From Geoalkalibacter subterraneus (GTDB lineage: Bacteria; Desulfobacterota; Desulfuromonadia; Desulfuromonadales; Geoalkalibacteraceae): 64,000 nucleotides of DNA. Numbering within the stretch: the stretch's first letter is position 1; the number at the start of each line of letters is the position of its first letter. The stretch covers positions 868,001 to 932,000 of the forward strand of contig NZ_CP010311.1 in NCBI RefSeq assembly GCF_000827125.1, read 5' to 3'. The notes below the pieces were generated by a model. The model did no database searches and was not told the DNA's origin. It saw only the letters and a program-made list of their open reading frames with translations. This document shows, piece after piece, positions 30,333-39,207 of this stretch. Both the position numbers and the translations under genes were made by a program.

Positions 30333-31778
30333 ATGAGCTTGTTTCGGCCCAAATCCTTTCTCGTTCTCGTTCTGATTGGCTTCAGCGTGGTTCTGATGCC
30401 GCTGTTGATTGCCCTGATTTCCGCCCAGGTTTCAGTGCGGGGGATGGTGGATCAGGGGACCGAAACGGTGTACCGCTCTGTTTCCGCGACCGAAGGGGGG
30501 CGGGTGCTGGTAGAGCGCCTGGTGGATCTGGAGCGAAGTGCCCGCCAGTACCAGGTACTCAAGGAGCCCGCCCTGCTTGAGGATGTTGCGCACAAGCGCG
30601 ATGATGTCCTCACTCGGATCGAGAATCTTGCGGTTCTGGCCGATCCGTCCCAGCATGGCGTTCTGGAGAGCCTGCGGGAAGGAGTCGATGCGTTGACCGC
30701 TGAGCTGCTCTTTGCTGCTGGCAATGGAGAGAGTTCTGTCTCCGATCTCGATCTTGATGAATTCGTGCGTCTCAACGCTATGGCTAAGACGGTTTATTTC
30801 AACAGCTATGACCTCATTGTACGGGAGGTGGACAGTCTGCATGCCAGAGCCTCCAAGGTGCAGAATCTTCTGATCTGGACGTCCCTGGGTCTGCTGCCCC
30901 TGACCCTGTTGCTGGTCGCGTTCTTCGTCAGGCGGCTTTCGCGCCCGGTGCAGCAGATCAATAAAAAGATCATGCGCCTGGGCGAGGGGGACTTTTCCAC
31001 CGAGATCAGTGTCGGCGGTCCTCAAGACCTTCGTGATCTGGGGCAGCGCCTGGATTGGCTTCGCCAGCGCCTCGGCGAAGTTGAGAGAGAAAAACATCGC
31101 TTCCTTGCCCATGTTTCCCATGAGCTGAAAACCCCGCTGGCCTCAATCCGCGAAGGTTCGGAACTTCTCATCGAACAGGTGGGCGGCCCCCTGACCAAAC
31201 AGCAGCGCGAGATTGCCAGAATACTTGGAAAAAACAGCGTACAGTTGCAGAAGATGATTGAAAACCTGCTTGGATTCAGCCGTAATCCGACCCGCAGCAT
31301 CCGAAGTGAAACAAAGGTCGATCTGCAGGAGATGATCGAAGCGCTGCTGCAGGATCATCGGGCCGTGGTCCTGAAAAAAAACCTGCAGATCAAAACCCAT
31401 CTTCGTCCTGGAGAGCTGACCGTCGACCGGGACCGTCTGCGCACTGTTTTGGACAATTTACTGTCCAATGCGGTAAAAAACACTCCCTCCGGGGGACGGG
31501 TGGAAGTCTCAGTAAGGTCTGCGGACGATGAAACCCTGATAGATGTGTCCGATTCAGGTCCCGGGGTGGATGAAACAGAGGAAAAAAAGATTTTTGAACC
31601 ATTCTTTCAGGGCAGCGCCCCCTGTCTCGGTCCCGTCCAGGGGACAGGGCTCGGCTTGTCAATTGTCAAGGAATATGTCGATGGGTTCAATGGGCGGATC
31701 GAACTTCAAAAAAGTACCTATGGTGGAGCGCTGTTTCGCCTCCATTTGCCGATGAAGATGGAGACCCCTCATGAGTAG
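30333..31778 (+). CDS. glrK: GlrK/QseE-like sensor histidine kinase
   Basis: 481 residues. Two membrane segments (~8-30 and ~178-200) flank a helical periplasmic domain. A HAMP domain follows (RRLSRPVQQINKKIMRLGEGDF). The H box is HVSHELKTPLASIREGSELL with His 263, and the ATPase boxes are NLLSNAVKNTPSGG, DSGPGVDETEEKKIFEPFFQG and GTGLGLSIVKEYVDG. The lineup kinase, lipoprotein, sigma-54 regulator is the same as E. coli glrK-qseG-glrR, where GlrK phosphorylates GlrR. It overlaps the lipoprotein gene by 8 bases. Orthology is inferred from order and domain layout. Confidence 0.85.
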   Translation: MSLFRPKSFLVLVLIGFSVVLMPLLIALISAQVSVRGMVDQGTETVYRSVSATEGGRVLVERLVDLERSARQYQVLKEPALLEDVAHKRDDVLTRIENLAVLADPSQHGVLESLREGVDALTAELLFAAGNGESSVSDLDLDEFVRLNAMAKTVYFNSYDLIVREVDSLHARASKVQNLLIWTSLGLLPLTLLLVAFFVRRLSRPVQQINKKIMRLGEGDFSTEISVGGPQDLRDLGQRLDWLRQRLGEVEREKHRFLAHVSHELKTPLASIREGSELLIEQVGGPLTKQQREIARILGKNSVQLQKMIENLLGFSRNPTRSIRSETKVDLQEMIEALLQDHRAVVLKKNLQIKTHLRPGELTVDRDRLRTVLDNLLSNAVKNTPSGGRVEVSVRSADDETLIDVSDSGPGVDETEEKKIFEPFFQGSAPCLGPVQGTGLGLSIVKEYVDGFNGRIELQKSTYGGALFRLHLPMKMETPHE

Positions 31779-32364
31779 GACTTTTCAGTTTTTACTGCCG
31801 GCGCTGTTTGCCGTACTGTTGCTCGGCGGGTGTGCTTTCCTGCGCGAACTCCATCTCCCTGCTCAGCTTCCTGCCGCGCCCGAGATCGCTGATGAGGCCG
31901 TGAACGCAGAGGGAAATCTGATCGACGCAGAGTTTGAACACAGTGTCGATACAAGCGAGGCTGAATCCCTTTTAACGTTTTTAGCTTACCTTGAGACGCT
32001 GTCTCCTGATGAGCAGGATCAGGTCTATCAAGAAGTAAAGAACCAGTTCGATGACAGTCCTGATCAGCAGGTGCGCTTGCGCCTGGCCCTGCTTCAAATT
32101 CAACCGGGAAGGTCTTTTACCGACTTTTCCGAGGGCCGGAAACTTTTACAGGACTACGGACGGGACTCTCAGGAACAGGGGGATGCAGGTCTTGGCGCCC
32201 TGGCCAATCTGCTTGAAGCGCTTGCCCGCGAGCATAATCTTCTCACCGCGCAATTAGTCGATGAAAAGCGTGCCAATGAACATTTGGCACGCCAGTTGAA
32301 TGAACTTAAAAATATTGAAAATATCTTGAAATCCCGTGAAGTCGAAAGCCTTCCCGGCATGTGA
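31771..32364 (+). CDS. qseG: QseG-like outer-membrane lipoprotein
   Basis: 197 residues. A lipoprotein signal ends in VLLLGGC (Cys 21). The mature protein is acidic and helical with a C-terminal coiled coil (DEKRANEHLARQLNELKNIE). In enterobacteria QseG sits between glrK and glrR and interacts with the GlrK sensor domain. Sequence similarity is limited here, so the name rests mainly on position, lipobox and helical character. It overlaps glrK by 8 bases and lies 23 bases before glrR. Confidence 0.7.
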   Translation: MSRTFQFLLPALFAVLLLGGCAFLRELHLPAQLPAAPEIADEAVNAEGNLIDAEFEHSVDTSEAESLLTFLAYLETLSPDEQDQVYQEVKNQFDDSPDQQVRLRLALLQIQPGRSFTDFSEGRKLLQDYGRDSQEQGDAGLGALANLLEALAREHNLLTAQLVDEKRANEHLARQLNELKNIENILKSREVESLPGM

Positions 32365-32387: not shown

Positions 32388-33740
32388 ATGAGCCAAAACG
32401 AAAAGAAAATTCTTCTGGTTGATGACGATCAGGATCTGCTGCAATTGCTTTCAATGCGGCTTGAGCGGCATGGTTACCAGGTGAGCCTGGCACAGAGTGC
32501 GGAAGAAGCTCTGGCCCGTATCCCTGTGATCCGTCCGCACCTGGTCATAACCGATTTACGCATGGAAGGGATGGACGGCCTGGCCCTTTTCGATGCGGTG
32601 CGCCGGAGCCACGGTTCCCTGCCGGTGATTATCCTGACCGCACATGGCTCCATCCCTGACGCGGTGGATGCGACGAGACGCGGAGTTTTTACCTTTCTGA
32701 CCAAGCCCTTTGACAGTCGCGACCTGCTGCGGGAAATCGAAAGAGCCCTTACCCTCTCGGCTGACACTGCCGGGCAGGCGGATTCCGATGGCGACCAGGA
32801 CTGGCGCAGGGAGCTGCTGACGCGCAGTCCGCTGATGGAAGATCTGCTGGCCAAGGCCCACCTCGCTGCAGCCAGCGGCGCAAGTGTGCTGCTTCGTGGC
32901 GAAAGCGGTACCGGCAAAGAGTTGCTGGCCCGCGCCATTCATCGTGCCAGCAACCGTCGCGACAAACCTTTTGTCGCCATTAACTGCGGCGCCATTCCCG
33001 ATTCCCTGCTCGAGTCAGAACTTTTCGGGCATGCCAAGGGCGCATTTACCGGTGCAGATCGCAACCACCCCGGTCTTTTCAAGTCTGCCGACGGGGGAAC
33101 GCTTTTCCTGGATGAAATCGGAGACATGCCTTCCGCGCTACAGGTCAAGTTGCTGCGCGTCGTCCAGGAGCGGCAGGTGCGCGCGGTTGGAGCTTCACAA
33201 ACGATTCCTGTTGACGTACGCATTATTTCTGCGACTCATCGGAATCTTGAGGAGGAAATTGAAGCCGGAAATTTCCGCGAAGACCTCTACTATCGCCTCA
33301 ACGTGGTTTCGCTCGATTTGCCGACGCTTGCGCAGAGGCGCGAGGATATCCCTCTGCTGGCCGACCATTTTCTGCGTCAGTTCAGTGAGCAGATTGGCAA
33401 GAAGGTCAGTGGTTTTTCCCCGGAAGCGATGGAAACCCTGGTTGGCGCTTCATGGCCCGGCAATATCCGGCAGCTGTGCAATGTTGTGGAGCAGGCCGTC
33501 GCATTATCGACGACGTCGGTCATCGCCGCCGATCTTGTCAATCATGCCTTGCGTGAAACGCCCGAGGAAATTCCTCCCTTTGCCGAGGCCCGGCGCCGCT
33601 TTGAGCAGGACTACCTGGTCCGTTTGCTCAAAATAACCAATGGTAATGTTGCGCAGGCCGCACGCCTGGCCAAGCGCAACCGGACGGAATTTTACAAATT
33701 GCTCAATCGCCACCATATTGCTCCGGCATTATTTAAGTAG
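32388..33740 (+). CDS. glrR: GlrR-like sigma-54-dependent response regulator
   Basis: 450 residues, with NtrC-family architecture. The receiver domain holds LVDDDQDLL and phospho-acceptor Asp 56 in LVITDLRMEGMDG. The AAA+ domain has Walker A GESGTGKE (~171), the sigma-54 contact loop GAFTGA (~218), and Walker B GGTLFLDEIGDM. A Fis-type helix-turn-helix ends the protein (GNVAQAARLAKRNRTEFYKLLNRH). Phosphorylated by the adjacent GlrK-like kinase, it should activate sigma-54 promoters. Two sites fitting the enterobacterial GlrR pattern lie directly downstream, ahead of a -24/-12 promoter. Confidence 0.9.
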   Translation: MSQNEKKILLVDDDQDLLQLLSMRLERHGYQVSLAQSAEEALARIPVIRPHLVITDLRMEGMDGLALFDAVRRSHGSLPVIILTAHGSIPDAVDATRRGVFTFLTKPFDSRDLLREIERALTLSADTAGQADSDGDQDWRRELLTRSPLMEDLLAKAHLAAASGASVLLRGESGTGKELLARAIHRASNRRDKPFVAINCGAIPDSLLESELFGHAKGAFTGADRNHPGLFKSADGGTLFLDEIGDMPSALQVKLLRVVQERQVRAVGASQTIPVDVRIISATHRNLEEEIEAGNFREDLYYRLNVVSLDLPTLAQRREDIPLLADHFLRQFSEQIGKKVSGFSPEAMETLVGASWPGNIRQLCNVVEQAVALSTTSVIAADLVNHALRETPEEIPPFAEARRRFEQDYLVRLLKITNGNVAQAARLAKRNRTEFYKLLNRHHIAPALFK

Positions 33741-33791: not shown

Positions 33792-33809
33792 TGTCTCCAG
33801 AAGGCGACA
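33792..33809. promoter_or_regulatory. GlrR-type enhancer site 1
   Basis: TGTCTCCAGAAGGCGACA. It fits the TGTC-N10-GACA pattern described for enterobacterial GlrR and is identical over 18 bases to site 2, which lies 90 bases downstream. Its centre is ~165 bases upstream of the sigma-54 promoter. Confidence 0.7.
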
Positions 33810-33881
33810 ATTGCCTATTACGTTGTTTTTCCCGGCAGTTTGAAAAAAATTGTCAGTTTGATGACTCAACCTGGGGTGCTT

Positions 33882-33899
33882 TGTCTCCAGAAGGCGACA
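33882..33899. promoter_or_regulatory. GlrR-type enhancer site 2
   Basis: Second exact copy of TGTCTCCAGAAGGCGACA, ~100 bases upstream of the predicted transcription start. The distance suits an enhancer for a sigma-54 activator. Confidence 0.7.
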
Positions 33900-33961
33900 G
33901 GTTCGGGCGTAGTTCTTCTACCAACCTGGCCATATTGTGTGCTCGCCGCGCGGCTGCAGAC

Positions 33962-33978
33962 TTGGTACTTTGTTTGCT
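33962..33978 (+). promoter_or_regulatory. Sigma-54 (-24/-12) promoter
   Basis: TTGGTACTTTGTTTGCT. GG at 33964-33965 and GC at 33976-33977 are 10 bases apart, matching TGGCAC-N5-TTGC with one difference in the -24 box. Transcription would start near 33989 and read the secreted-protein gene at 34079. Confidence 0.7.
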
Positions 33979-34078
33979 TCTAATTCATGCATAGATTTTG
34001 GTAGGATGTAAATCCCTGGAATTTTCTCGTCAAGCCTGATCTTTTATGAGCCATTAGCGTAATGGTAAGGAGTTTTTC

Positions 34079-34555
34079 TTGAAAAATTCCATTTGGCGTT
34101 CATTGGCCGTGCTGGGCGTCGCCATGGTCATGGGGCTTGCCGCATACGCCGGCCAGACCGGATATCCCGATGATATGGAGGTGCGCCGCATTACGGCACT
34201 TCCCGAAGTCCGGTCTCTGGAGTATGATGGAGTTCGCTTGAGCTATCGCCTTGGTGAAGTGCGGACTCAGGATCGTCCTTATCTGGCAGGGAGTCAGGAC
34301 TTTCCCGCCCAAAGCGAACTGAAGATTTTTGCATCACTGACCGATGTGGAAAGCGGCCATGCACTCGATGGCGCACAGGTTTATTTCAATGCAGAAACAC
34401 CGATTGGAGTTGAAGTCACTGCCATTGGCAAAAAGGCTGCCTGGGGGTACTATACAGTGCTCACGGAGCCACGCAGTGGTCGATATGAATTTACTTTCAC
34501 CGCCCAGTTCGGAGGCACCTTTGTGGAAGATCGGTTTTGCTACGATTTCAACTGA
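34079..34555 (+). CDS. Secreted protein of unknown function, predicted GlrR target
   Basis: 158 residues. A signal peptide (KNSIWRSLAVLGVAMVMG) is cleaved near AYA-GQ. The mature domain is beta-rich and Ig-like (SELKIFASLTDVESGHALDG, then VYFNAETPIGVEVTAIG and GRYEFTFTAQFGGTFVEDRF), faintly like the YtkA/FixH class of small periplasmic domains. It starts with TTG, with AAGGAG 6 bases upstream. It lies directly after the two GlrR-like sites and a sigma-54 promoter. The function is not known. Confidence 0.78.
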   Translation: MKNSIWRSLAVLGVAMVMGLAAYAGQTGYPDDMEVRRITALPEVRSLEYDGVRLSYRLGEVRTQDRPYLAGSQDFPAQSELKIFASLTDVESGHALDGAQVYFNAETPIGVEVTAIGKKAAWGYYTVLTEPRSGRYEFTFTAQFGGTFVEDRFCYDFN

Positions 34556-34599: not shown

Positions 34600-34641
34600 C
34601 CCGTCCGGCGGCTCCTGCCCTTCCGTTGGACGGGTTTTTTT
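34600..34641 (+). terminator. Rho-independent terminator after the secreted-protein gene
   Basis: Arms CCCGTCC (34600-34606) and GGACGGG (34628-34634) are followed by seven T. It lies just upstream of the ribosome site of the next gene, so read-through would be limited. Confidence 0.7.
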
Positions 34642-34659: not shown

Positions 34660-35367
34660 ATGATTCGTAAAGTCGTGATTGGATCCGTGTCTGTCCTTCT
34701 GTTGCTGCCGTCCGGCGGTCTGGCTGAAACCCGATATGTCAGTGATCAGTTGGTGATCACATTGCGGGAAGCTGCACGGGATTCTGCGCCGATGATCAAG
34801 ACTCTGCGTACCGATACCGCCGTAGAGATTCTTGGAGAGCAGGGGGCGTTTTTTCGTGTCCGTGAGCCGGGAGGCAAGGAAGGCTACGTGCTTAAGCAGT
34901 ATATCAGCCCTCAACTGCCGAAGCCCCGCCAGATCGATCATCTGAAGAAAGAAAACGCGTCCCTGGATGGCATGCTGAAAAAATGCCGGGAAGAGCTTTC
35001 AGGCCTTCACGACACATCAAAAGATGTACGTGCCCAGGACAGGGAGCGGATTGCCGAGTTGGAGGCCCTGATTGCTGATCTGGAACAGGAAAAACAGACC
35101 CGCATGGAGAACTACGATGTCATCCGTGAAAAATATGAAAAGCTCAAAGCCCAATCGGAAAACGTCGTTCAGTTGGCTGAGGAGAATAAGCAGCTGCATA
35201 CCGACCAATCCCGTTTGAGTGAGGAGAATGTCCGTTTGGCCGAGCAGAATCAGAAGCTGATGATGAAAGGAATCATTCAATGGTTTCTTGCCGGGGGCGG
35301 GGTCTTTTTTATCGGCTGGCTCAGCGGGAAGTTTTCCCGGCGGAAAAAGTCCTCATTCATGGGTTGA
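34660..35367 (+). CDS. TIGR04211-type SH3 domain protein (YgiM-like)
   Basis: 235 residues. Signal peptide, then a bacterial SH3 domain at ~24-85 (ETRYVSDQLVITLREA, then AVEILGEQGAFFRVREPGG), a long coiled coil (~90-205), and one C-terminal membrane segment (GIIQWFLAGGGVFFIGWLSG) with a basic end. This is the YgiM layout: the SH3 domain in the periplasm, anchored at its C-terminus in the inner membrane. The function is unknown, possibly cell-wall related. GGAG lies 9 bases before the ATG. It is separated from the preceding gene by a terminator. Confidence 0.88.
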   Translation: MIRKVVIGSVSVLLLLPSGGLAETRYVSDQLVITLREAARDSAPMIKTLRTDTAVEILGEQGAFFRVREPGGKEGYVLKQYISPQLPKPRQIDHLKKENASLDGMLKKCREELSGLHDTSKDVRAQDRERIAELEALIADLEQEKQTRMENYDVIREKYEKLKAQSENVVQLAEENKQLHTDQSRLSEENVRLAEQNQKLMMKGIIQWFLAGGGVFFIGWLSGKFSRRKKSSFMG

Positions 35368-35524: not shown

Positions 35525-36303
35525 TCAGGCTTCTTTGGGCAGCGCCTTGAGCAGTTCGCGGTTCATGCGGGCGATGAAGGAGACGCTGATCCCCTTCGGG
35601 CATGCCGCTTCGCACTCGTAGTGGTTGGTGCAGTTGCCAAAGCCTTCGCCATCCATCGCTTCGACCATGGCCCGGACACGGCGTGCCGCCTCCACCCGGC
35701 CCTGGGGCAGCAGCGCGAGCTGCGAAACCTTGGCCGAGGTGAACAGCATGGCAGACGCATTGGGGCAGGCTGCCACACAGGCACCGCAACCGATGCAGGC
35801 TGCTGCATCCATGGCTGCGTCGGCATCAGGCTTGGGAATGACCGTTGCGTTTGAATCGGGCACCCCGCCATTGTGGGTGGAACCGCCCGAGGGGCAGCCG
35901 CCGGTGTGGCAGCTCACATAGCCATAGGCCTGCATGATGCGGTCAAGGGCGTTGCGGTCGACCACCAGGTCCTTGACAATGGGGAACGCCTTGGAACGCC
36001 AGGGCTCAACGAAGACAGAATCGCCATCCTTGAAGCGCCGCATGTGCAACTGACATACGGTAATTTCGTCGTCAGGCCCATGTGCGATGCCGTTGATCAC
36101 CTGCGAGCACATGCCGCAGATTCCCTCGCGACAATCGTGATCAAAGGCGATGGGGTCTATCCCCTTTTTGATCAGATCCTCGTTGACTTCGTCGAGCATT
36201 TCGAGGAAAGACGAATCGGGGCTGACATCCTTGGCTTCGTACTTTTCCAGTTTGCCTTTGTCGTTGGGCCCCTTCTGCCGCCAAACGTACAGTGTGAGAT
36301 TCA

Positions 36304-36304
<1 letters not shown>
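35525..36304 (-). CDS. frdB: Fumarate reductase/succinate dehydrogenase iron-sulfur subunit
   Basis: 259 residues. Three clusters are visible: [2Fe-2S] in [19 protein letters not shown], [4Fe-4S] in [15 protein letters not shown], and [3Fe-4S] in [17 protein letters not shown]. The subunit passes electrons between FAD and the haem b subunit. In Geobacter sulfurreducens the equivalent FrdCAB works both as fumarate reductase and succinate dehydrogenase. Its start codon overlaps the frdA stop (TAATG). A terminator follows. Confidence 0.95.
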
Positions 36305-38220
<1,916 letters not shown>

Positions 38221-38231
38221 GATAGTTCCCC

Positions 38232-38903
38232 CTAAAGTTTAACGATGCCTACGAGAATGGAGATCGGAATGGAGACATAACCGACCATCAGCACGATTGC
38301 AATCCACTTGCCGACAGTTTCGATCGTCGGCAGCGTACGGGCGTTGTTGAGGCCCGAGGATTGGAACATGCTGCCGATGCCGTGGCTGAGATGCAGCAGC
38401 AGAAAAACCATGGCAATGACATAGGTCAGTGCGATGAAGAATTTCTGGAAGCTCAGCACCACCATGGAGTAGACGTCCATGCGTCCGGCGGCGTCGACAA
38501 GATTGGAAATGTCGGGATTCGTGACACGCACCGTGAAGTGGAACAGGTGGTAGATAACGAAGATCAACAGCACGATACCGGTGTAGATCATGATCTGTGC
38601 CGCATAGCTGGTGCGCAGGTTTTTCTTCTGGGCATATTCAACCGGGCGGGCCATCTTGTTCTCAAGCGTCAGCTTGATGCCCAGCCAGATATGAACCAGA
38701 AAAACACCCAGCATCACCAGGCGGAACAGCCAGACCACCGGCCCTAAGGAGTGGAGCTTTGCCGCATAGGCGTTGATGCCGTCGGGACCAACAAAGACCG
38801 AGCTGTTCCCGATGAGGTGGACGATGACGAACATAACCAGGATCAAACCTGTTGTCGCCATGAGGACTTTCTTACCCACCGAGGATCCAAATAACATTTG
38901 CAT
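38232..38903 (-). CDS. frdC: Fumarate reductase/succinate dehydrogenase cytochrome b subunit
   Basis: About 223 residues with five membrane segments. The type-B layout shows conserved His for two haems b in [28 protein letters not shown], and [13 protein letters not shown]. It anchors the complex and exchanges electrons with menaquinone. Several ATG codons lie close together (38912, 38909, 38903, 38897). I chose 38903 because AGGGG sits 9 bases before it; the true start could be any of them. Confidence 0.92.
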
Positions 38904-39207
38904 ACCCATCATCCCCTGGAAAAGATTGTTTGACTCACCTGCCCGACCTCATGCCGGGAGGCACTCTCTCCGATATTTATCTATTGAAGCAAAACCGGAT
39001 TGCTCCGGTGGCGAAAAACCGACTCAGATCGGCGGAGCGCGTCCGCAGACCATGCATCTGTTCATGCCGACATTCATGGAACGAAGTCTTCCATTGACAA
39101 TGTGTTGGGAAAAAGGGACAAAGAAGTCGCGACCCAGCAGGATGCAAGCTCTTTCATCTCCTTAATATAACATAATAAAAATGCTTCTATTGCAGATGGA
39201 ATTTGTA

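Follow-up and report, generated by a model that had tools for sequence, protein, structure and literature searches.

The window analysed here is a 64-kb stretch of the genome of the metal-reducing bacterium Geoalkalibacter subterraneus Red1, and the term refers to the whole of it. On its plus strand, genes for a histidine kinase, a lipoprotein and a sigma-54-dependent response regulator are followed by two identical palindromic sites, a predicted sigma-54 promoter, a gene for a small exported protein and a hairpin terminator.

The kinase-lipoprotein-regulator cassette

The first gene of the cassette (30333 to 31778, plus strand) encodes a GlrK (QseE)-like histidine kinase of 481 amino acids with a sensor region and HAMP, HisKA and HATPase domains, assigned from Pfam. 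The protein aligns with E. coli GlrK from end to end, sensor included, at 33% identity, and its sensor keeps the arginines of an ERSxRQY stretch that correspond to R70 and R73 of E. coli GlrK, residues that mediate the binding of QseG according to a cryo-EM study (PMC12691602). Judged by this alignment, the kinase is an orthologue of GlrK in its sensor domain as well and has the arginines that contact QseG.

The second gene (31771 to 32364, plus strand) stands in the QseG position and encodes a protein of 197 amino acids that its sequence and the gene order mark as a lipoprotein. Position, lipobox (LLGGC) and a C-terminal LxxLxxIExxLxxR motif are common to this protein and QseG, whose C-terminal end is needed for kinase binding, as the same study states (PMC12691602). 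Profile comparison with E. coli QseG gave a weak C-terminal match (hhalign probability, 15%), and a Pfam search returned no match to a QseG family. The sequence-only reading of this DNA had proposed that the order of kinase, lipoprotein and regulator is kept; the order is indeed kept, but the identity of the lipoprotein as QseG is only weakly supported by its sequence.

The third gene (32388 to 33740, plus strand) encodes a GlrR (QseF)-like response regulator of 450 amino acids with Response_reg and Sigma54_activat domains. Its best family is NF011695 (621 bits), about 190 bits ahead of the next, ZraR (428 bits). It shares 58.5% identity with E. coli GlrR, and the RNRTEFYKLL stretch of the helix-turn-helix is identical in the two proteins. 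The score nevertheless falls short of the curated NF011695 equivalog threshold (763 bits), which E. coli passes and no genome among the 136 of the order reaches. This cut-off is apparently tuned to enterobacteria, and we therefore claim the regulator, with its receiver, GAFTGA ATPase and helix-turn-helix, as an orthologue of GlrR outside the curated equivalog. A PEP-CTERM-box response regulator (TIGR02915) was considered and rejected, the score of 386.6 bits being under the cut-off of 502.6. The GlrR orthologue is present, always as a single copy, in 30 of the 136 genomes, and the same search in 14 named control genomes matched E. coli alone. Read from their translations, genes resembling those for succinate dehydrogenase/fumarate reductase (35525 to 38912, minus strand) converge on the cassette.

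Tandem sites, promoter and exported protein

Behind the regulator gene, an 18-mer, TGTCTCCAGAAGGCGACA, occurs in two identical copies 90 bp apart, which start 51 and 141 nt 3' of the stop codon. These predicted GlrR sites, to which no strand is assigned, lie at 33792 to 33809 and at 33882 to 33899, with centres at about -188 and -98 relative to the predicted transcription start, and their assignment draws on their score and on the conserved position behind glrR. They are the sole matches to TGTC-N10-GACA in the 64 kb. The bare motif is not rare, since 0.91 matches are expected per window and at least two were found in 17 of 100 shuffles; what counts is that the two copies are identical and paired, where they lie, and that they are conserved. 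In the G. subterraneus genome, the exact-pair pattern has two occurrences and the reversed-pattern control none. An exact pair in another genome (G001) lies inside a kinase coding region and is probably due to chance.

The predicted sigma-54 promoter (TGGTACTTTGTTTGCT; 33963 to 33978, plus strand) is recognized from its sequence, which fits the consensus, and both the element and its spacing are conserved. Within TTGGTACTTTGTTTGCT (33962 to 33978), a GG-N10-GC element has its GG at 33964 and its GC at 33976, a position that puts the predicted +1 near 33989 and leaves a leader of 90 nt to a TTG codon at 34079. The TTG start has an AAGGAG six bases upstream, and the N terminus that it gives aligns with homologues from residue 1. 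The sequence-only reading had described the two sites with their 90-bp spacing, a GG-N10-GC sigma-54 element, a predicted start near 33989 and the TTG codon, and the present analysis agrees on all of these.

The TTG gene (34079 to 34555, plus strand) encodes an exported protein of 158 amino acids whose signal segment ends in AYAGQTGY. A search placed homologues immediately behind glrR in four other genomes, and inspection added more. The protein is predicted to form a beta-sandwich (model pLDDT, 75, a moderate value); structure searches returned weak beta-sandwich matches only, such as CBM56, CrdA and DUF4426, and no close solved relative of the predicted fold. At ten loci of one family, the exported protein is reduced to a conserved signal or transmembrane segment, A-L-x-AGQxGY, with a short variable tail, and the conservation of this segment exceeds what an ordinary cleaved signal needs. 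Another genome (G024) has two tandem exported-protein genes, in open reading frames 299 and 1,224 nt after the glrR stop.

The predicted sigma-54 transcript has its 3' end, past the stop codon of the exported-protein gene, in a hairpin terminator (34600 to 34641, plus strand) with the loop CTGCCCT at 34615 to 34621. The following gene (34660 to 35367, plus strand) was assigned, from its NCBIfam score (120 bits; cut-off, 65) and its neighbourhood, to the TIGR04211 SH3-domain and membrane-anchor proteins. In most genomes of the order, a TIGR04211 gene comes after the one for the exported protein; here the terminator stands between the two.

Conservation of the sites behind glrR

The sequence-only reading had proposed a search for such sites in related Desulfuromonadales genomes. 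In 29 of the 30 genomes with a GlrR orthologue, we counted sites within the 220 nt that follow the glrR stop. With up to one mismatch allowed, 26 of the 29 genomes had sites, 51 in all, where the reversed motif gave 4 and the shuffles averaged 1.46. There were 18 exact sites, in 15 genomes, compared to 1 for the reversed motif and 0.05 in shuffles, and nearly all of them had the 10-bp gap. A strong sigma-54 element follows in most of these loci. Three genomes (G066, G127 and G130) have GlrR and no site after its gene. A pattern combining site and promoter (N8 between TGG and TTGC) matched 13 places, among them the window and G010 promoters, against 5 for a control and 14 for an off-spacing control (N9 between TGG and TTGC); by itself the pattern does not establish enrichment across the genome.

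On a symmetric site matrix trained without the window genome (consensus, TGTCGCCAATTGGCGACA), the two window sites ranked first with 22.0 bits each, the next best site in the window reaching 13.8. The three sites of E. coli glmY scored 22.5, 20.9 and 15.5 bits on this matrix. No good match lies before the kinase gene in the window.

Using the GlrR DNA-binding domain, we gathered 80 further loci, among them Desulfobulbaceae, Betaproteobacteria and Gammaproteobacteria, of which 78 could be tested. Sites followed glrR in 63 of the 78 (109 sites, against 10 for the reversed motif; seven loci duplicate genomes already counted within the order), and the other 15 yielded none. Outside the order, the two sites are usually 65 to 66 bp apart. 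In the joint set of 101 loci, from which the seven repeats were removed, a sigma-54 GG-N10-GC element is present in 67; other spacings give 1 to 5, and the opposite strand gives 4. The distances from site to promoter cluster at about 70, 83, 93, 103, 115 and 126 bp, with a Rayleigh P value of <1e-9 at 10.5 to 11 bp that is uncorrected for kinship; the loci are related, and the statistics therefore overstate their independence. The spacing is thus helically phased, as expected of proteins acting from one face of the helix. That the regulatory logic is kept outside the enterobacteria, as had been proposed, is thus borne out at the level of predicted elements: paired sites and a sigma-54 promoter are conserved beside glrR in the order and far beyond.

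Other predicted GlrR targets

The second exact pair of the G. subterraneus genome lies at 1705590 and 1705670 and is followed by TTGGATTTGATTTTGCT and a gene for an acyltransferase of the TIGR03694 family (145 bits; cut-off, 112). Pair and promoter are kept before the orthologous gene in G010 and G062, making three genomes in all. In two gammaproteobacteria, genes of the same family, with scores above the cut-off, stand directly after glrR behind such sites. In G. subterraneus, the gene for this exosortase-associated acyltransferase is the second one predicted to be under GlrR control. Translations indicate PEP-CTERM and exopolysaccharide genes 6 to 18 kb downstream of it. The cluster near this second target (L267, 865 to 12109) comprises, as read from the translations, genes for a PEP-CTERM protein, a second acyltransferase, a PEP-CTERM-box-type response regulator, a TPR protein and exopolysaccharide functions.

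In other clades, different genes follow the promoter and encode an EF-hand/BON protein, a glycine-zipper protein or a CsgD/EpsA-like regulator. The secreted protein had been put forward as the main output of the promoter. It does follow the promoter here, but it is neither the sole nor a universal output, given the second, acyltransferase target, the other genes of other clades and a sister genus with no open reading frame at this place.

A pair of TGTC-N10-GACA sites 89 bp apart also lies upstream of the gene for a NiFe-hydrogenase small subunit in G074 and G082 (L027, 1501 to 1607; L269, with sites some 430 and 341 bp ahead of the gene), and in both genomes a conserved GGGCAYAAAAATTGCC element precedes the gene. 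The inner halves of these sites are mostly CCGACA, and we set this promoter aside as a GlrR target, another sigma-54 activator being the probable regulator. The outer motif alone is therefore not specific to GlrR.

The terminator hairpin and a possible small RNA

Each of the six genomes of the family has the CTGCCCT hairpin a single time, at this locus. Its loop is invariant in the six, and pairing of the stem is kept with changes on both sides at three pairs, a count that was matched in 112 of 500 shuffles. In the sister genus (four genomes), no open reading frame follows the promoter, and an estimated 70 to 125 nt end in the CTGCCCT terminator hairpin; by eye, the next gene after the hairpin begins in a rhodanese-like manner (DVRQxxEYxxGHLPGA) at all four of these loci. 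We found no convincing copy of the hairpin elsewhere, the next model score being 37 bits for a sequence without the loop. Between 33700 and 34760, there was no Rfam match up to an E value of 1, GlmY included, and GlmY or another Rfam family at this promoter was rejected on this ground.

These observations bear on the possibility that in this family the functional output of the promoter is mainly a small RNA and not the protein. This RNA would be the released hairpin or the whole transcript, in the manner of GlmY, the GlrR output of E. coli. The predicted transcript of the sister genus that lacks an open reading frame, the invariant loop with its changed stem and the restriction of the element to this locus speak for it. 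Against this, only six related genomes are concerned, shuffles also reach the count of paired changes, a plain terminator would plausibly account for the hairpin, Rfam offers no match and the remaining families of the order keep the exported protein but have no such hairpin. We regard a small RNA as the main product as unlikely, at perhaps one chance in four; the related proposal, that the GlrR/sigma-54 transcript of the family consists of or includes a small regulatory RNA, unrelated to GlmY and recognizable by its invariant loop, is slightly more plausible but still doubtful. In that case, GlrR would govern an RNA product in two lineages far apart, by way of different genes.

Discussion

We propose, with a probability of about 0.88, that this locus is the home promoter of an envelope-sensing system of the GlrK-QseG-GlrR type and that it drives the transcript of the exported protein. 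An envelope signal, probably passed on through the outer-membrane lipoprotein, would activate the kinase, which would phosphorylate GlrR; GlrR oligomers would then bind the palindromes at about -188 and -98 and loop to the sigma-54 RNA polymerase at -24/-12. The resulting transcript would run from about 33989, encode the small exported beta-sandwich protein and end in the hairpin at 34600 to 34641. The acyltransferase promoter elsewhere in the genome has the same build and would add at least one further target. The analysis shows the gene homologies, the sites and promoter with their conservation and phasing, and the sites of the second target; that GlrR is phosphorylated, binds, loops and activates transcription, and that the signal comes from the envelope, is inferred.

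Sites and promoter could also be real and yet be bound by a different enhancer-binding protein with a TGTC/GACA half-site, glrR being near by coincidence. Genomes of the order with a match carry 35 to 141 sigma-54 activator candidates at first look, and the hydrogenase pair, with its CCGACA inner half-sites, probably answers to one such regulator. However, the sites accompany glrR in Desulfobacterota, Betaproteobacteria and Gammaproteobacteria alike, the helix-turn-helix matches that of E. coli GlrR, and the sites of E. coli glmY, a GlrR target (PMC6075780), score high on the same matrix, so that we consider another activator improbable. Even less can be said for a short palindrome that fell twice near a gene by chance and has no regulatory role: the bare motif is indeed expected about once per window, but conservation, spacing, held-out scoring and sigma-54 phasing contradict this explanation so strongly that we give it almost no weight.

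The proposed GlrR system resembles the enterobacterial GlrK-QseG-GlrR/glmY system, in which GlrR controls glmY and rpoE (PMC6075780; PMC8745638), in its gene order, its orthologous kinase and regulator, its sigma-54 promoter and its sites, TGTC-N10-GACA being the consensus quoted for E. coli GlrR (PMC8745638). It differs in the place of the target, which is 3' of glrR in Geoalkalibacter and upstream of glrK in enterobacteria, in the number of sites (two, compared to three at E. coli glmY) and in the output, which is predicted to be an exported protein, or in the sister genus a transcript with no open reading frame, and not GlmY. According to passages of PMC12691602, qseEGF spans Gammaproteobacteria, Betaproteobacteria and Acidithiobacillia; the clusters treated there and the present one have in common the order of kinase, lipoprotein and regulator and the QseG-contacting arginines of the kinase, and those passages name neither Desulfobacterota nor target promoters. 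By their scores, the second predicted target and the glrR-adjacent genes of the two gammaproteobacteria belong to the PEP-CTERM/exosortase-associated acyltransferases of TIGR03694. A literature search, in which subscription titles were largely uncovered, returned no paper that puts this family under GlrR and no account of a promoter behind glrR, of members in Desulfobacterota or of these targets, which is not proof that the promoter behind glrR is new.

Taken together, the site, its pairing and its place right behind the regulator gene persist from phylum to phylum, and what differs is the gene under control. Outside the enterobacteria, the predicted GlrR targets are exported proteins, an exosortase-associated acyltransferase, a CsgD/EpsA-like regulator, and BON and glycine-zipper proteins, a set that speaks for a role at the cell surface in organisms whose promoter has no GlmY. 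A regulator of enterobacteria would thereby become an example on which the idea of an ancient enhancer code can be tested.
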